Source: Gammaproteobacteria bacterium
GTDB taxonomy: Bacteria > Pseudomonadota > Gammaproteobacteria > Steroidobacterales > Steroidobacteraceae
Direction of reading: 5' to 3'
Assembly: GCA_028293765.1 (NCBI GenBank)
Contig: JAQGOG010000089.1
Location: forward strand, 62,001 to 126,000
Length of the DNA: 64,000 nt
Of this stretch, positions 52,115 to 63,595 are shown piece after piece; the stretch's first letter is position 1, and each line of letters begins with the position of its first letter. The notes beneath the pieces were generated by a model that was not told where the DNA came from, did not search any database, and saw nothing but the letters and a program-made list of their open reading frames with translations. A program made the position numbers and the translations under genes.

Positions 52115-53698
52115 ATGAGTTTCCGCGCGATTTTGGGATATGCCGGATTTGTGGCGCTGATGCTGGATGCCGGAACGGCTTCCGCTCAGTTACTTAAAGC
52201 ACAGTGTCCGAGGGCAACGAATCTGCATCCGTTGATTGAGACAACTGATGCACTCGGCGCGACGACCGTGCACGCCAATCCGGATATCAAGTGTCAGGAG
52301 ATATCGGGCGGCGACGGCTACGCCACGATGGGCGACGGCACCCAGACCTACCTCTTCGGATTTGGCCCGCTGTCGGGGATTGATCTGATTTCGAAGGGCC
52401 TCCCGGGTACGCAGTCGGCAGGCGACTTCCTCAACGCCTATCACACGAAATACCTGCCGGGTCTGGATGCCAACAATGGCAATCAGCTGCTGCCCGATCC
52501 TACGACGAACCCTGCCAGCGGCTATAGCGGTGTTGACAGCCCCAATGGCGGCGTGCTCGATGCGGCCGAGATGATGAATGTCGGCGTGCTCGCGGCCCAG
52601 CAACCGGCTCCGCTGATTGCAATCAACGAAGACGACGAGCTGTACCTGACTCTGTCGAACGTCGGCATGATCATGCGGCCCGATCTCTTCGAGCAGCACA
52701 CGGTCCACTTCCACGGCTATCCGAACGCATCGTCCTACTTCGACGGCGTTCCGGACGCGTCGGTGGCCATCGCCATCTCAGGCAGCATGACGTACTACTA
52801 CACGGCTCCGGATGCGGGTACGTACTTCTTCCACTGCCACATCACACCTCCGGAACACCTTCAGATGGGTATGGTGGGACAGCTGTATGTGCGGCCGCGC
52901 CAAGACAAGGTCAGTGGCAGCACCCTGTACGCGGCGCTGACTGCAAGCAACACCGCGCACGGGCTGTCCATCGAAGGCAAGCAGTGCGCGGACATACTAT
53001 GCACCGGCGCCACGCCGGCGCCGGCAGCCGGTGACAACAACATGACCCGCGACACTGCAGGAGCGATAGTCGGTTCGGCGCAGCAGCTCTCTGGTCTGAC
53101 CCACGCGGTCAACTACGCGTACAACGATGGGGATGGATCCACCGCCTACGATGTCGAATATCCGATCCAGCTGATGGGCTTCGATCCTGCCTTTCACTTC
53201 GTTGGCATGACCTTCAACCCGGAAGACTTCTCCGGCATGAAGGATAAATACTTCATGATCAGCGGCCGCAGCTACCCGGACACGATCAGCCCCACCTTGA
53301 TCCGCACGCAGGCTTCGGACGGCCTGGCGCGGCCGAGCCAGCCGATCCGCTCGAAGATCACGCTGACCTCTTGCACTTCGCCATGCGCAGCGGGCGTCAC
53401 GCATCGCGCGCTTCTGCGTGTCTCGGACCTGAACGTCACGGAATTCCACACGCTCGCCAGCAATATTCCGATGACGGTGATCGGTTATAACGCGCGGCTG
53501 CTGCGCGACATGGCCGGCAACAATCTCTACTACGACACGAACTCGATCACGGTCGGCGGCGGCGAGTCGGCAGACATTCTCATCAAGTCGGACGACGTCC
53601 CCCCCGGTACGTATTTCCTTTACACCACCAATCTCGATCACTTGGCGAACGACGCGGAAAATGTCGGCGGCATGATGACCGAGATCGAAGTTAAGTAG
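52115..53698 (+). CDS. Exported multicopper oxidase-type protein (cupredoxin)
   Basis: Signal peptide MSFRAILGYAGFVALMLDAGTASAQ; EQHTVHFHGYPNASSYFDGVPDASVAIAISGSMTYYYTAPDAGTYFFHCHITPPEHLQMGMVGQLYVRP. Confidence 0.9.
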   Translation: MSFRAILGYAGFVALMLDAGTASAQLLKAQCPRATNLHPLIETTDALGATTVHANPDIKCQEISGGDGYATMGDGTQTYLFGFGPLSGIDLISKGLPGTQSAGDFLNAYHTKYLPGLDANNGNQLLPDPTTNPASGYSGVDSPNGGVLDAAEMMNVGVLAAQQPAPLIAINEDDELYLTLSNVGMIMRPDLFEQHTVHFHGYPNASSYFDGVPDASVAIAISGSMTYYYTAPDAGTYFFHCHITPPEHLQMGMVGQLYVRPRQDKVSGSTLYAALTASNTAHGLSIEGKQCADILCTGATPAPAAGDNNMTRDTAGAIVGSAQQLSGLTHAVNYAYNDGDGSTAYDVEYPIQLMGFDPAFHFVGMTFNPEDFSGMKDKYFMISGRSYPDTISPTLIRTQASDGLARPSQPIRSKITLTSCTSPCAAGVTHRALLRVSDLNVTEFHTLASNIPMTVIGYNARLLRDMAGNNLYYDTNSITVGGGESADILIKSDDVPPGTYFLYTTNLDHLANDAENVGGMMTEIEVK

Positions 53699-53708
53699 GA
53701 GAGCGGCA

Positions 53709-55259
53709 ATGACTCACGTAAAGAACCGAGTTCGCCGCGCGCCGGCACTGTTGTCACTGCTCGCCAGTGGTCTGGGCCTGCTTAATGCGGCACCCACGCT
53801 GGCTGCAGTGCCGGGCATCACAGGCACCACCTTCAACTTGGTGGCGGCCGATGCTTACACCATCCAACCGGACGGCGCGACCCTGTACTCCTGGGGCTAT
53901 GGATGCGCCACCCAGCCGGCGCGAACCGAATTCCTGCCGGCTGTCGGCAACGGACCCGCCCCTGTGTGTCCGACCATGCAGTCGCCGGGCCCGACACTGA
54001 TCGTAACGGAAAACCAGACCGTGAAGGTTGTTCTCAAGAACACCTTGCCGAAGGCGGCCGGCAACACCTCAATCGTGTTTCCGGGATTTAGCGTCTCGGC
54101 TTCAGGCGACACGCCCGGGCTGCTCGCGAACGAAGCGGCTCCCGGTGAGACGGTCACCTACACCTTCGTAGCCGAACATCCCGGGACCTACTCCTACTAC
54201 AGCGGCTCGCAGTCCGAACTGCAGATTGAGATGGGCATGTTTGGCGCGGTCATCGTACTGCCGGCGAACGATCACGTTCCGGCCAAATGTGTCAATCAGG
54301 GCACGTATTCACTCGCCAAGGCCGCCTACAACAACCCCGGCGCCTGCTATGACCGCGAGTACCTGTTCCAATTCAGCGAAGCCGATGCGCGCGTGCACCA
54401 AGCCGTGGACGACCAGGTGCATACAGCCGGCCCGACCGGTTCCGCTTCCGGTTCGCTCAATGTATCGATGGATCCGTATCAGCCGCAGTATTTCCTGGTG
54501 AACGGCCGCTCCATGCCGGATGACATGGACGCCCCGTACGCAACCAGCTACCTACACCAGCCGTACAACGGCAACCCGCACATGCATCCGGGCGAACTGG
54601 TGCTGATGCGGATCATCGGCCAGGGCCGCATCCAGCATCCGTTTCACTTCCACGGCAACCATGCGCGTGTGCTGGCCCGTGACGGCAATCTGCTGCTGAG
54701 CACCGACGGTACCTCGCTGGCCGGTCCGCTGCTGTTTACGACGCCGACAGTGCCCGGTCAGAGCCAGGATCAAATCTTCGCGTGGACGGGGCAGGGCCTG
54801 AACTGGGACGTATACGGACGTACGCAATCGCATACCTGCAACGGCGTGACGATTGCCGCAGCCATAGCAAACCTTGCTACGGCGCCTCACAGCCAGGCCA
54901 CGGATGCCGATCTGACGTTGGCTGGCAAGTTCGGAATATATACCAGCCCGTTTGACGCCACGACGAAAGAATGGTGTCCGGATCACGGCAAGGACATTCC
55001 GGTCGCGCCGCCCGATCCGCAGGCGGTGGCCAACGGTTTGTGGTACGGCGGCACGCCATACCTCGGCATGCAGTCTGCCAACCCGACGCCATTGCCCCCG
55101 GGAGCGGTGCGACAGAATTCGGATGCCGGCTATGCCTTCATGTGGCACTCACACAATGAGCGCGAAATCACGACGAACAATGTGTTTCCTGGCGGAATGA
55201 TGATGATGCTCATCATCGATTCTCCAAATTCGACGTTGTCCATCGACGAGACGAAGTGA
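53709..55259 (+). CDS. Exported multicopper oxidase-type protein (cupredoxin) with HPFHFHG and HSHNE motifs
   Basis: Signal peptide; GRIQHPFHFHGNHARVLARDGNLL; AFMWHSHNEREITTNNVFPGGMMMMLII. Confidence 0.9.
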   Translation: MTHVKNRVRRAPALLSLLASGLGLLNAAPTLAAVPGITGTTFNLVAADAYTIQPDGATLYSWGYGCATQPARTEFLPAVGNGPAPVCPTMQSPGPTLIVTENQTVKVVLKNTLPKAAGNTSIVFPGFSVSASGDTPGLLANEAAPGETVTYTFVAEHPGTYSYYSGSQSELQIEMGMFGAVIVLPANDHVPAKCVNQGTYSLAKAAYNNPGACYDREYLFQFSEADARVHQAVDDQVHTAGPTGSASGSLNVSMDPYQPQYFLVNGRSMPDDMDAPYATSYLHQPYNGNPHMHPGELVLMRIIGQGRIQHPFHFHGNHARVLARDGNLLLSTDGTSLAGPLLFTTPTVPGQSQDQIFAWTGQGLNWDVYGRTQSHTCNGVTIAAAIANLATAPHSQATDADLTLAGKFGIYTSPFDATTKEWCPDHGKDIPVAPPDPQAVANGLWYGGTPYLGMQSANPTPLPPGAVRQNSDAGYAFMWHSHNEREITTNNVFPGGMMMMLIIDSPNSTLSIDETK

Positions 55260-55291
55260 GGCCGCCAATGGAAATGTTCGGGAGAAAGTTC

Positions 55292-58200
55292 ATGCCTTAC
55301 GAATACATTAAGTCACTCCTTCGGACAGTGGCGATCACGGTTCCTGTGATGCTCGCCGGCGGTATCGCCTTGGCGCAGACCACCGCCAATCTGACGGCTG
55401 CAAGGATGAGTGCAACGCTTCCCGATGGCGCTGCGGTGCCAATGTGGGGCTACTGCCAAACCGCAACCTCAGGAGATGCTTGCCCATCAACGGCCTGGGC
55501 TCCGGGGCCGACCATCGTCGTGCCGACGGATTCCACCGGCTTCGGCAGCCTGACCATCAATCTATCCAATAGTCTGCCGATCAACACCTCGATCGTCATT
55601 CTTGGACAGGCCGGTGGCGGCATGGGTGCGTCCTTGCCGCGCGAGGAGAGTCCAACTGGCGGCACACACGCTAGACAGGGCGTAACATGGCCCTCTACAG
55701 GCACGCCGTGCCCAGCGAATGCTGCGACGCAGGATCCTCCCTGTACCGACCCCACGTTTGCCCCTTCGGGCCAACAGTCCCGTGCGCTAGCTTTTGGTGT
55801 TGAGGCGCCTGCAGGTGGTAACAATGCGTACAGTTGGACGCACCTGCGCCCGGGTACTTATCTCTACGAGACCGGATCGCTGCCCTCGCTGCAGGCTCCG
55901 ATGGGCCTGTACGGTGTCCTGGTTGTGACTCAGGCGCCGACCGCGACTCTTGCAGGCGATGCATATCCGAATAAGACGGTTGTCGTGAACAAGGTCACGA
56001 CGCCGGGTGCAGCGTATGACGCTGATGTCACGGTACTCTTAAGCGAAGTCGACCCGCGGCAAAACGCGGCAGTTGATGCCGCAGCGGCCGGTAAAGCTGA
56101 CCCCCTCAAGCTGTTCAATGATTCATCGTGCACGACGTCGACCCCTTGCTATCCGCCGGTGGTCAACTACGCACCGACCTATTTCCTGATCAATGGTCAC
56201 GCCTTCAATCCCACTCGCCCGGCAGACTCAGGCTTCGCCTTCTCTGGCAACGCCGCCGTAAGCGGTAACGTGCTGGTACGCTTGGTGAATGCGGGCCTGC
56301 GCATGCATGTGCCTTCGATCGTCGGCGTCAAGTCGGTGAACGTGGTTGCCGAAGACGGCAACCTGGCTCCTGGCACACCGAAGAAGCAAAGCCACATCCT
56401 CATGGCCGCCGGCAAAACCTACGATGTGACTTTTAAACCGACGCAGACGACGGCAGGACTCTTCGACAATGTTTCGTTGCCGATCTTCGATCGCGCGCTC
56501 AACCTGACTAGCGGCAATCTCGATCACCAGTCGGTCGTGGCCAACAGCGGAATGCTCGCCTTCCTGGCTATGCAGCCCGCCAAAGCAACTGTGGGCGATA
56601 CCGGCTCGGGCGGCGCCGCTGTGCCGGCCGCGCTGCAAGCTGTTGTGGTCCCCGATGTATTCGCAACCCCGGTTGGTACGCCCGTGAACGGTAACGTGCT
56701 GACCAATGATATCAACGTCGTTACTGCTGCAGTGACGAGTACGGCGACAAAGATGGGTGGCGTCGTTACGTTGGCTACGGACGGAAGCTTTATATATACA
56801 CCGCCACCACCAGATTCCAGCGGCAATGCGTTCGTGGGCCAAGATGCATTTACTTATAACGGAAACGGCAGCGCCGCGCTCTCGGCAGTAGTGACCATAA
56901 CAGTCGGCACCACTGCGCTCCCGATTGCCGTCGCCGATACGGGTGCCGCCGCTTTTACCAGCAACGTCGCCAGCCTGTACAAGTCCGGCGCGCCTGGCGT
57001 GTTGGCCAACGACACGGCCTCTGACGGCAAGACCATTGTCGGTCTCAGCGCGGTGCTCGAGGCCAATCAAGATTGCGCTAGCGTCGACTTGCAGCCGGAT
57101 GGCAGCTTCACGGCCGTACCGAGCACGGCTGGAACACCCTGCAACTTCACGTATCGCGCGAAGAATGAGATGGGCGCTGTCAGCAAGGTGGCGGCCAAGG
57201 CGACCGTCAACTTCGCAGCGGGGTCCGGTCTCGCCGTGACGGTGCAAGACACCCAAGATCCTTTACCAACAGGAGCGATTGGTGACTACAGTTGGGTAAT
57301 CGAGGAAGACACGACGTTCTTCCATGACCCGAAGACCCCGGGCGCCACGAATACGCTGGCCACCAATTTCCACAAGAGCTACATGCCGGTGTTGGCCACC
57401 GGCTGCACTGGGCCCTACAGCTGCGGTGACAAGAACACGGTCGGCGGCACAGCGATTGCGCCGCGCACGCGTTCCTTGCCCGCAGATGTGGTGCTCGACC
57501 CGAACAAGCGCTACTTCATCTCGATTCTGCCCGGCGATGCCGACCAGGGCAGTGCAGCCTATAACGCCGACGGCTCGGTCGCCGTCACCAGTTTTGGCCA
57601 CACCATGGGCGGCGTGCCGATTGCGGCCGGTCAGCAGGCGGCGACGGTACTGGTCGCGCGCAACCCGCTGCCGCCGTCGCAGCTCAGCGTCATCGTGTTC
57701 GAGGACAACAACCCGACCAACGGCGGCGTCGACGACAACGAGCAGGGGCTCGGCGGGTTCACGATCAATTTGTACGACACTCGCGGCAGCTCCGGCGATC
57801 CGGCTGGCCTGATGACCTATGACCTGTCGGCCATGCCATTCACCAATTCGTTGGCGAACCAAACGGACAGCATCACGCATATCAACCTCTGTCCGCTGAC
57901 CACGCCCTCGGGCACCATCATTACCTGTCCGGAACTCGACAGCAGCGGCCAACCCTCGCCGCTGGCCGGCATGGCTTTGATCAAGAACATCAACCCGGGC
58001 CGATATGACGTCTGGGCCACGCCGGGCGCTGATCGCGCCATCAAAGGCGAGCAGTGGGTGCAGGTCTCGACCCTCGAAGGCACGCACGCGAACGACACCT
58101 TCATCAAGCCGGGCGAGCCGCCGTACTGGCAGGAGTTCGGCCCGCCGGGCTTCCACTCATTCATCGGCTTCATCAATCCGGCTCACATCAAAGCCGTGAC

Positions 58201-63595: not shown

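Follow-up and report, generated by a model that had tools for sequence, protein, structure and literature searches.

The three consecutive genes found at 52115-63595 on the + strand of the window (the whole 64,000-nucleotide stretch of Steroidobacteraceae DNA that was analysed) are proposed, with a probability of about 0.6, to encode one extracellular heterotrimeric multicopper oxidase (MCO) resembling those of type C, in which a giant protein would provide a copper-free head together with a scaffold, and whose substrate may be a metal. The features of this region are the following:

52115..53698, +, MCO1, two-domain cupredoxin subunit of 527 aa (Pfam Cu-oxidase_2/3; signal peptide by eye)
52697..52873, +, MCO1 copper motif HTVHFHG...HCHITPPEHLQMGM (H195-M253), located by regular expression
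53709..55259, +, MCO2, two-domain cupredoxin subunit of 516 aa (Pfam; profile alignment to 3g5w/2zwn)
54636..54653, +, MCO2 predicted trinuclear half-site, first motif HPFHFH (H310-H315), from invariant ligand columns
55146..55154, +, MCO2 predicted trinuclear half-site, second motif HSH (480-482), from invariant ligand columns
55292..63595, +, giant protein, inactive cupredoxin head plus scaffold (2767 codons, one intact ORF)
55379..56590, +, head of the giant, two cupredoxin domains without copper ligands, putative third MCO subunit (AlphaFold, Foldseek)
56642..57205, +, bacterial Ig repeats, Big_9 (Pfam PF17963, two stretches)
57218..60535, +, conserved beta-rich scaffold (44-78% identity in relatives), containing SdrD_B at 58616-58846
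60923..62185, +, right-handed beta-helix, NosD/Beta_helix-like (weak Pfam/NCBIfam matches; conserved in relatives)
62915..63235, +, C-terminal choice-of-anchor-D/ASH-like Ig domain (NF012200, E 3.6e-10)
63707..64192, +, secreted-looking gene of 161 aa, covered by the window up to 64000 (its family occurs 3' of the giant or at other places within the locus)

The initial annotation had described the giant as a single ORF of ~2770 codons from 55292, and this has been borne out. The reading frame is open from a GTG at 55256 to the stop at 63595 (+), and the ATG at 55292 is the position where the homologue alignments begin and has GGGAGAAAG directly 5' of it, so that both this start and the length can be taken as correct. 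The GC content by codon position (0.58/0.52/0.79) follows the same pattern as in both MCO genes. A frameshift or a sequencing error merging separate ORFs, which had been raised as a possible source of the giant, is ruled out by a full-length paralogue and by long homologues (2510-3517 aa) in 61 loci. An antisense ORF of 1749 aa overlapping the giant (58361-63610, - strand) was rejected as a coding shadow, because its composition mirrors the sense frame. No match to a sigma-70-like promoter was found in the region of the giant. In some relatives (L050, L065, L074, L084, L085, and L022, the L numbers designating loci) the giant appears as two or three ORFs, which may reflect a frameshift, an assembly error, or a real split.

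Searches against Pfam and NCBIfam agree with the multidomain exoprotein originally described, including the order of its Ig, SdrD_B, beta-helix, and anchor-D parts. Big_9 is located at residues 463-549 and SdrD_B at residues 1121-1197 (E 2.6e-11), followed by matches to NosD (1895-1940) and beta-helix (2192-2302), both below their cut-offs, and by choice-of-anchor D (2554-2647), whose score of 40 bits stays under the cut-off of 45. The IPT-like domain that had also been listed was not found by Pfam. The anchor-D-like C-terminus is the least conserved part of the giant (22-50% identity among relatives), and the AlphaFold model of scaffold residues 655-1760 is poor (pLDDT 50).

The N-terminal head (residues 13-455) yielded an AlphaFold model with a pLDDT of 75.7 and a pTM of 0.76, for which the top PDB folds retrieved by Foldseek are 3g5w (E 2.4e-17) and 2zwn (E 1.7e-16), which we take to be type C homotrimers. 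This result confirms a cupredoxin-type N-terminus, for which Pfam returned a Cu-oxidase match (306-398, E 0.0016) below the cut-off. Of the redox-type head suggested previously, the fold stands and the redox activity does not, since none of 63 giant sequences has retained the motifs for copper ligation; domain 2 of the head has one His left of the ligand set. The head as an active cupredoxin was rejected in the absence of a ligand set across the 63 heads, and it is not expected to be redox-active alone. The most fitting reading is that of a split MCO encoded by the giant gene and its two neighbours, in which the head is the inactive third subunit. The head is a stand-alone gene in L106, L111, L112, and L113, and in the distant locus L106 this free gene (468 aa) exhibits 32% identity over the head. 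HpiC1-like domains were observed between the two cupredoxin domains of the free head, in three stretches in one locus (L113:573-3092) and in one stretch in another (L111:3489-4982).

The proposed linkage of the giant to copper-oxidase genes also holds, as two MCO genes precede it on the same strand. Profile searches with MCO1 and MCO2 gave 3g5w/2zwn as best matches, covering both domains. As MCO1, MCO2, and the head all match two-domain MCOs, the triad comprises three two-domain cupredoxin units, thus six domains. In domain 1 of MCO1, residues H195, H198, H200, H240, C241, H242, H248, M251, and M253 (residue numbers for the window proteins are taken from ungapped sequences) are invariant in 78 sequences, and these ligand columns correspond to a full type 1 (T1) site plus half a trinuclear site. 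The T1 ligands (H195, C241, H248, and M253) occur in MCO1 only, in its N-terminal domain, and the regular expression for its copper motif is matched by 78/78 MCO1, 0/79 MCO2, and 0/63 heads. In domain 2, all 79 MCO2 sequences keep residues H310, H313, H315, H480, and H482 and have no T1 site, with a Ser replacing the T1 Cys (HSH for HCH). The position of the HCH motif is occupied by Y-S-G or E-T/S-G in domain 1 of both MCO2 and the head, and by T-T-N in domain 2 of MCO1. HMM alignments place the motifs retained by MCO1 and MCO2 on the domain-1 and domain-2 copper motifs of 2zwn, respectively. A complete ligand set is therefore absent from MCO1 alone and from MCO2 alone, and a single surviving trinuclear site is predicted from these sequences at the interface between MCO1 domain 1 and MCO2 domain 2.

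The three proteins could also act separately, MCO1 as a blue-copper carrier, MCO2 as a copper-binding partner, and the giant as an adhesin with an old cupredoxin head. This would be consistent with a T1 site that is complete within MCO1 and with the adhesin-like domains that dominate the giant. Nevertheless, the invariant complementary half trinuclear sites of MCO1 and MCO2 would have no obvious use unless they meet, and the scaffold is joined to one subunit in some lineages and to another elsewhere, which makes separate action unlikely.

A scan of GTDB genomes revealed 185 relatives of MCO2, of which the best 80 loci were inspected. Among these best 80 of 185, the genes are contiguous, on one strand, and in the order MCO1-MCO2-giant wherever the contig is long enough, and the hosts include Burkholderiales, Gallionellaceae, Anaeromyxobacter, and many Acidobacteriota (Proteobacteria, Acidobacteriota, and Myxococcota). 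The distribution is patchy, MCO1 and MCO2 being found together in 11-13 of the 101 family genomes and in one of 398 other genomes of a phylum sample. Plasmid records with the triad also exist, with no annotation on them. The genome studied here carries a second full triad on contig C17, with a giant of 3250 aa and identities to the window copy of 57% (MCO1), 58% (MCO2), and 47% (giant). Both MCO2 copies sit in different clades of the MCO2 tree, and the two triads are therefore old paralogues or separate acquisitions.

Distant relatives, typed with profiles of MCO1, MCO2, head, scaffold, and helix, exhibit rearranged architectures. In L106 and L112, a free scaffold-helix gene is followed by individual genes for MCO1, MCO2, and head, while in L109 and L110 the scaffold-helix is fused to the N-terminus of MCO1 and followed by MCO2 and, in L110, by a further cupredoxin-like gene. 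The great distance of the L106 relatives (end branch of 7.3 in the MCO2 tree) counts against the model; the complementary ligand split is kept in L106 and L109-L113 as far as the contigs reach. A scaffold that is fused to different subunits depending on the lineage argues for one complex, and its occurrence as a free protein, on subunit 3 (as in the window), or on subunit 1 supports such a complex as a prediction. That MCO1, MCO2, and the giant constitute a heteromeric split MCO is considered quite probable.

Two-domain MCOs are trimers in which the trinuclear site is formed by two protomers, type C being defined by a T1 site in the N-terminal domain (PMC13151041). Each unit of the triad shares its fold and domain order with the type C enzymes 3g5w and 2zwn, and the halves would likewise meet between protomers. 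The two cupredoxin domains per chain are recognised by profile in MCO1 and MCO2 and by fold in the head, N-terminal T1 ligands are found in MCO1 only, and the motif pattern is also that of type C, HxxHxHG...HCH(5)H marking domain 1 and a Cys-free H..HxH...HxH marking domain 2. Unlike the known type C homotrimers, which have three sites, the triad consists of three diverged genes with one predicted site and a scaffold on the third subunit, and the two half trinuclear sites, instead of lying in one chain, are in two gene products.

On the basis of the gene order, folds, ligand pattern, and modular rearrangement described above, we infer the assembly, copper loading, secretion route, and substrate of the triad as follows. 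By homology to the homotrimeric two-domain MCOs, in which the trinuclear site would form where domain 1 meets domain 2 of the next subunit, MCO1, MCO2, and the head may pack as a ring. Two of the three ring sites would have decayed, leaving that between MCO1 domain 1 and MCO2 domain 2, to which MCO1 would provide the T1 copper and four histidines and MCO2 another four histidines, with the giant head closing the ring without copper. The result would probably be an obligate heterotrimer with one trinuclear site across two gene products and a copper-free third subunit that is itself a giant surface scaffold, its beta-rich tail of ~2300 residues presumably anchoring the enzyme to a surface, matrix, or mineral. 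Electrons would flow from the T1 site to the trinuclear site and to O2; the MofC-like cytochrome c and the SCO1 chaperone encoded just downstream may serve in electron transfer and copper loading, respectively, and the type-II-secretion-like system of related clusters may export the parts. Such a pseudosymmetric ring would have lost two of its three active sites without gene fusion, in parallel to, and distinct from, ceruloplasmin and MnxG.

The triad resembles the oxidases MnxG, MofA, and OmpB in its six cupredoxin domains with one T1 and one trinuclear site (predicted here), its presumed extracellular location, and its cytochrome c, SCO1, and PPIase neighbours. These oxidases are set apart by their published descriptions as single chains, versus three genes here, and we know of no giant scaffold among them. 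If one ancestral six-domain chain had been divided over three genes, the triad would nevertheless be a split member of this family. The number of domains in sum would suit this origin, as would neighbours like those of mofABC/ompB (MofC-like cytochrome c, SCO1, and PPIase; PMC5566968) and the export of OmpB by an atypical type II system, according to a title cited in PMC5566968 and PMC3543383. However, the polarity of the site differs: prokaryotic six-domain MCOs carry T1 in domain 2, with the trinuclear site lying between that domain and domain 3 (PMC3600357), whereas in the triad T1 sits in domain 1 of MCO1 and the partner half in domain 2 of a separate chain, MCO2. Such an origin is regarded as improbable. 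PMC5566968 reports no homology to MnxG/MofA for the corresponding trio of Sideroxydans lithotrophicus ES-1. As cited in PMC5566968 and PMC3543383, OmpB is comparable as an extracellular MCO tied to a type-II-secretion-like system and to metal redox; unlike the trio, this homologue of MofA consists of one chain and includes a fibronectin domain.

Neighbour content was determined by targeted tblastn, and a clustering of raw ORFs in the flanks was set aside because it was dominated by antisense shadows. The window triad is followed by the 161-aa protein, a LolA-like protein, two one-haem cytochromes c, a 156-aa protein, and SCO1. The 161-aa family (L010:13708-14193) is present in 48/86 loci, mostly just 3' of the giant, and has no Pfam or NCBIfam match. 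The tandem one-haem cytochrome c genes after the triad (L010:14839-18428) correspond to window coordinates 64838-68427, beyond the window, and are labelled MofC-like after the literature, which describes a cytochrome c joined to a large domain without assignment. Genes upstream of the window triad are unrelated, and secretion genes are absent beside this copy, which counts against the model. Directly upstream of the triad in both Cupriavidus metallidurans CH34 and Ralstonia are genes of a type-II-secretion-like set (ATPase, secretin, and pilin-like), and in CH34 a parvulin PPIase is encoded downstream. The gig operon of CH34 (Rmet_4682 etc.), considered as the triad locus, is not this locus. 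The C17 triad also has a type-II-secretion-like set. Its secretin (L009:4455-6974; E 9e-11) and that of L056 (L056:2166-4856; E 8e-7) end in a cohesin domain (PF00963); none was seen on the CH34 and Ralstonia secretins. TSP_3/dockerin-like tails occur in L106 on the scaffold, the head gene, and an adjoining subtilase. Secretion port and cargo may be connected by cohesin-dockerin pairing.

The cluster itself is known. In S. lithotrophicus ES-1, He et al. (2017) reported a tandem of three MCO genes, accompanied by a MofC-like gene and a copper chaperone (PMC5566968), and according to the available text of a 2025 study (PMC12016527), the third, larger protein lacks MCO motifs and holds adhesin-like and polysaccharide-lyase-like domains, the roles are stated to be unknown, and Paraburkholderia, Ralstonia, and Anaeromyxobacter are named as carriers, Acidobacteriota not being named there. 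Like Slit_1812-1818, the cluster studied here encodes two MCO-motif proteins, a large motif-free cupredoxin protein, two small proteins, SCO1, and cytochrome. The Sideroxydans locus L017 agrees in order with Slit_1812-1818 up to SCO1, and the window copy has the same content with a different cytochrome/SCO1 order. The initial annotation did not regard this exact architecture as characterised; the cluster had already been reported in ES-1, with roles stated as unknown in the main text of these papers. The split site, the subunit model, and the scaffold modularity are additions to the main text of the ES-1 papers (PMC5566968, PMC12016527), and no description of a split active site was found in the open-access literature; the proposed architecture and mechanism appear to be new.

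Regarding the substrate, our best guess is that the triad oxidises Fe(II)/Mn(II), possibly also in solid form, as a secreted enzyme that the scaffold would keep at the surface. The evidence for this is the higher abundance of Slit_1812-1818 on magnetite in one relative only, the iron oxidiser ES-1 (PMC12016527). The main alternative is that the same heteromeric enzyme oxidises organic compounds such as phenols, humics, or lignin-derived molecules, serving litter or matrix chemistry by soil heterotrophs. Many hosts are indeed soil Acidobacteriota and Paraburkholderia-type bacteria, which fit phenol/humic oxidation equally and thus weaken the metal-oxidase reading, and the beta-helix and polysaccharide-lyase-like parts would suit polymer binding. 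Nevertheless, the abundance on magnetite, the MofC-like and SCO1 neighbours, and the presence of the triad in Anaeromyxobacter and Sideroxydans speak against an organic substrate, which is held to be rather doubtful. A metal as substrate stays tentative, at slightly under even odds.

If the heterotrimer proposed here is correct, proteins annotated separately as multicopper oxidases in many soil and iron bacteria would be half-enzymes that look dead when expressed alone, and the object to purify would be the trio MCO1-MCO2-giant. The triad would also represent a clear intermediate between homotrimeric two-domain and fused six-domain oxidases, and a concrete candidate for the way in which bacteria oxidise solid Fe(II)/Mn(II) outside the cell.
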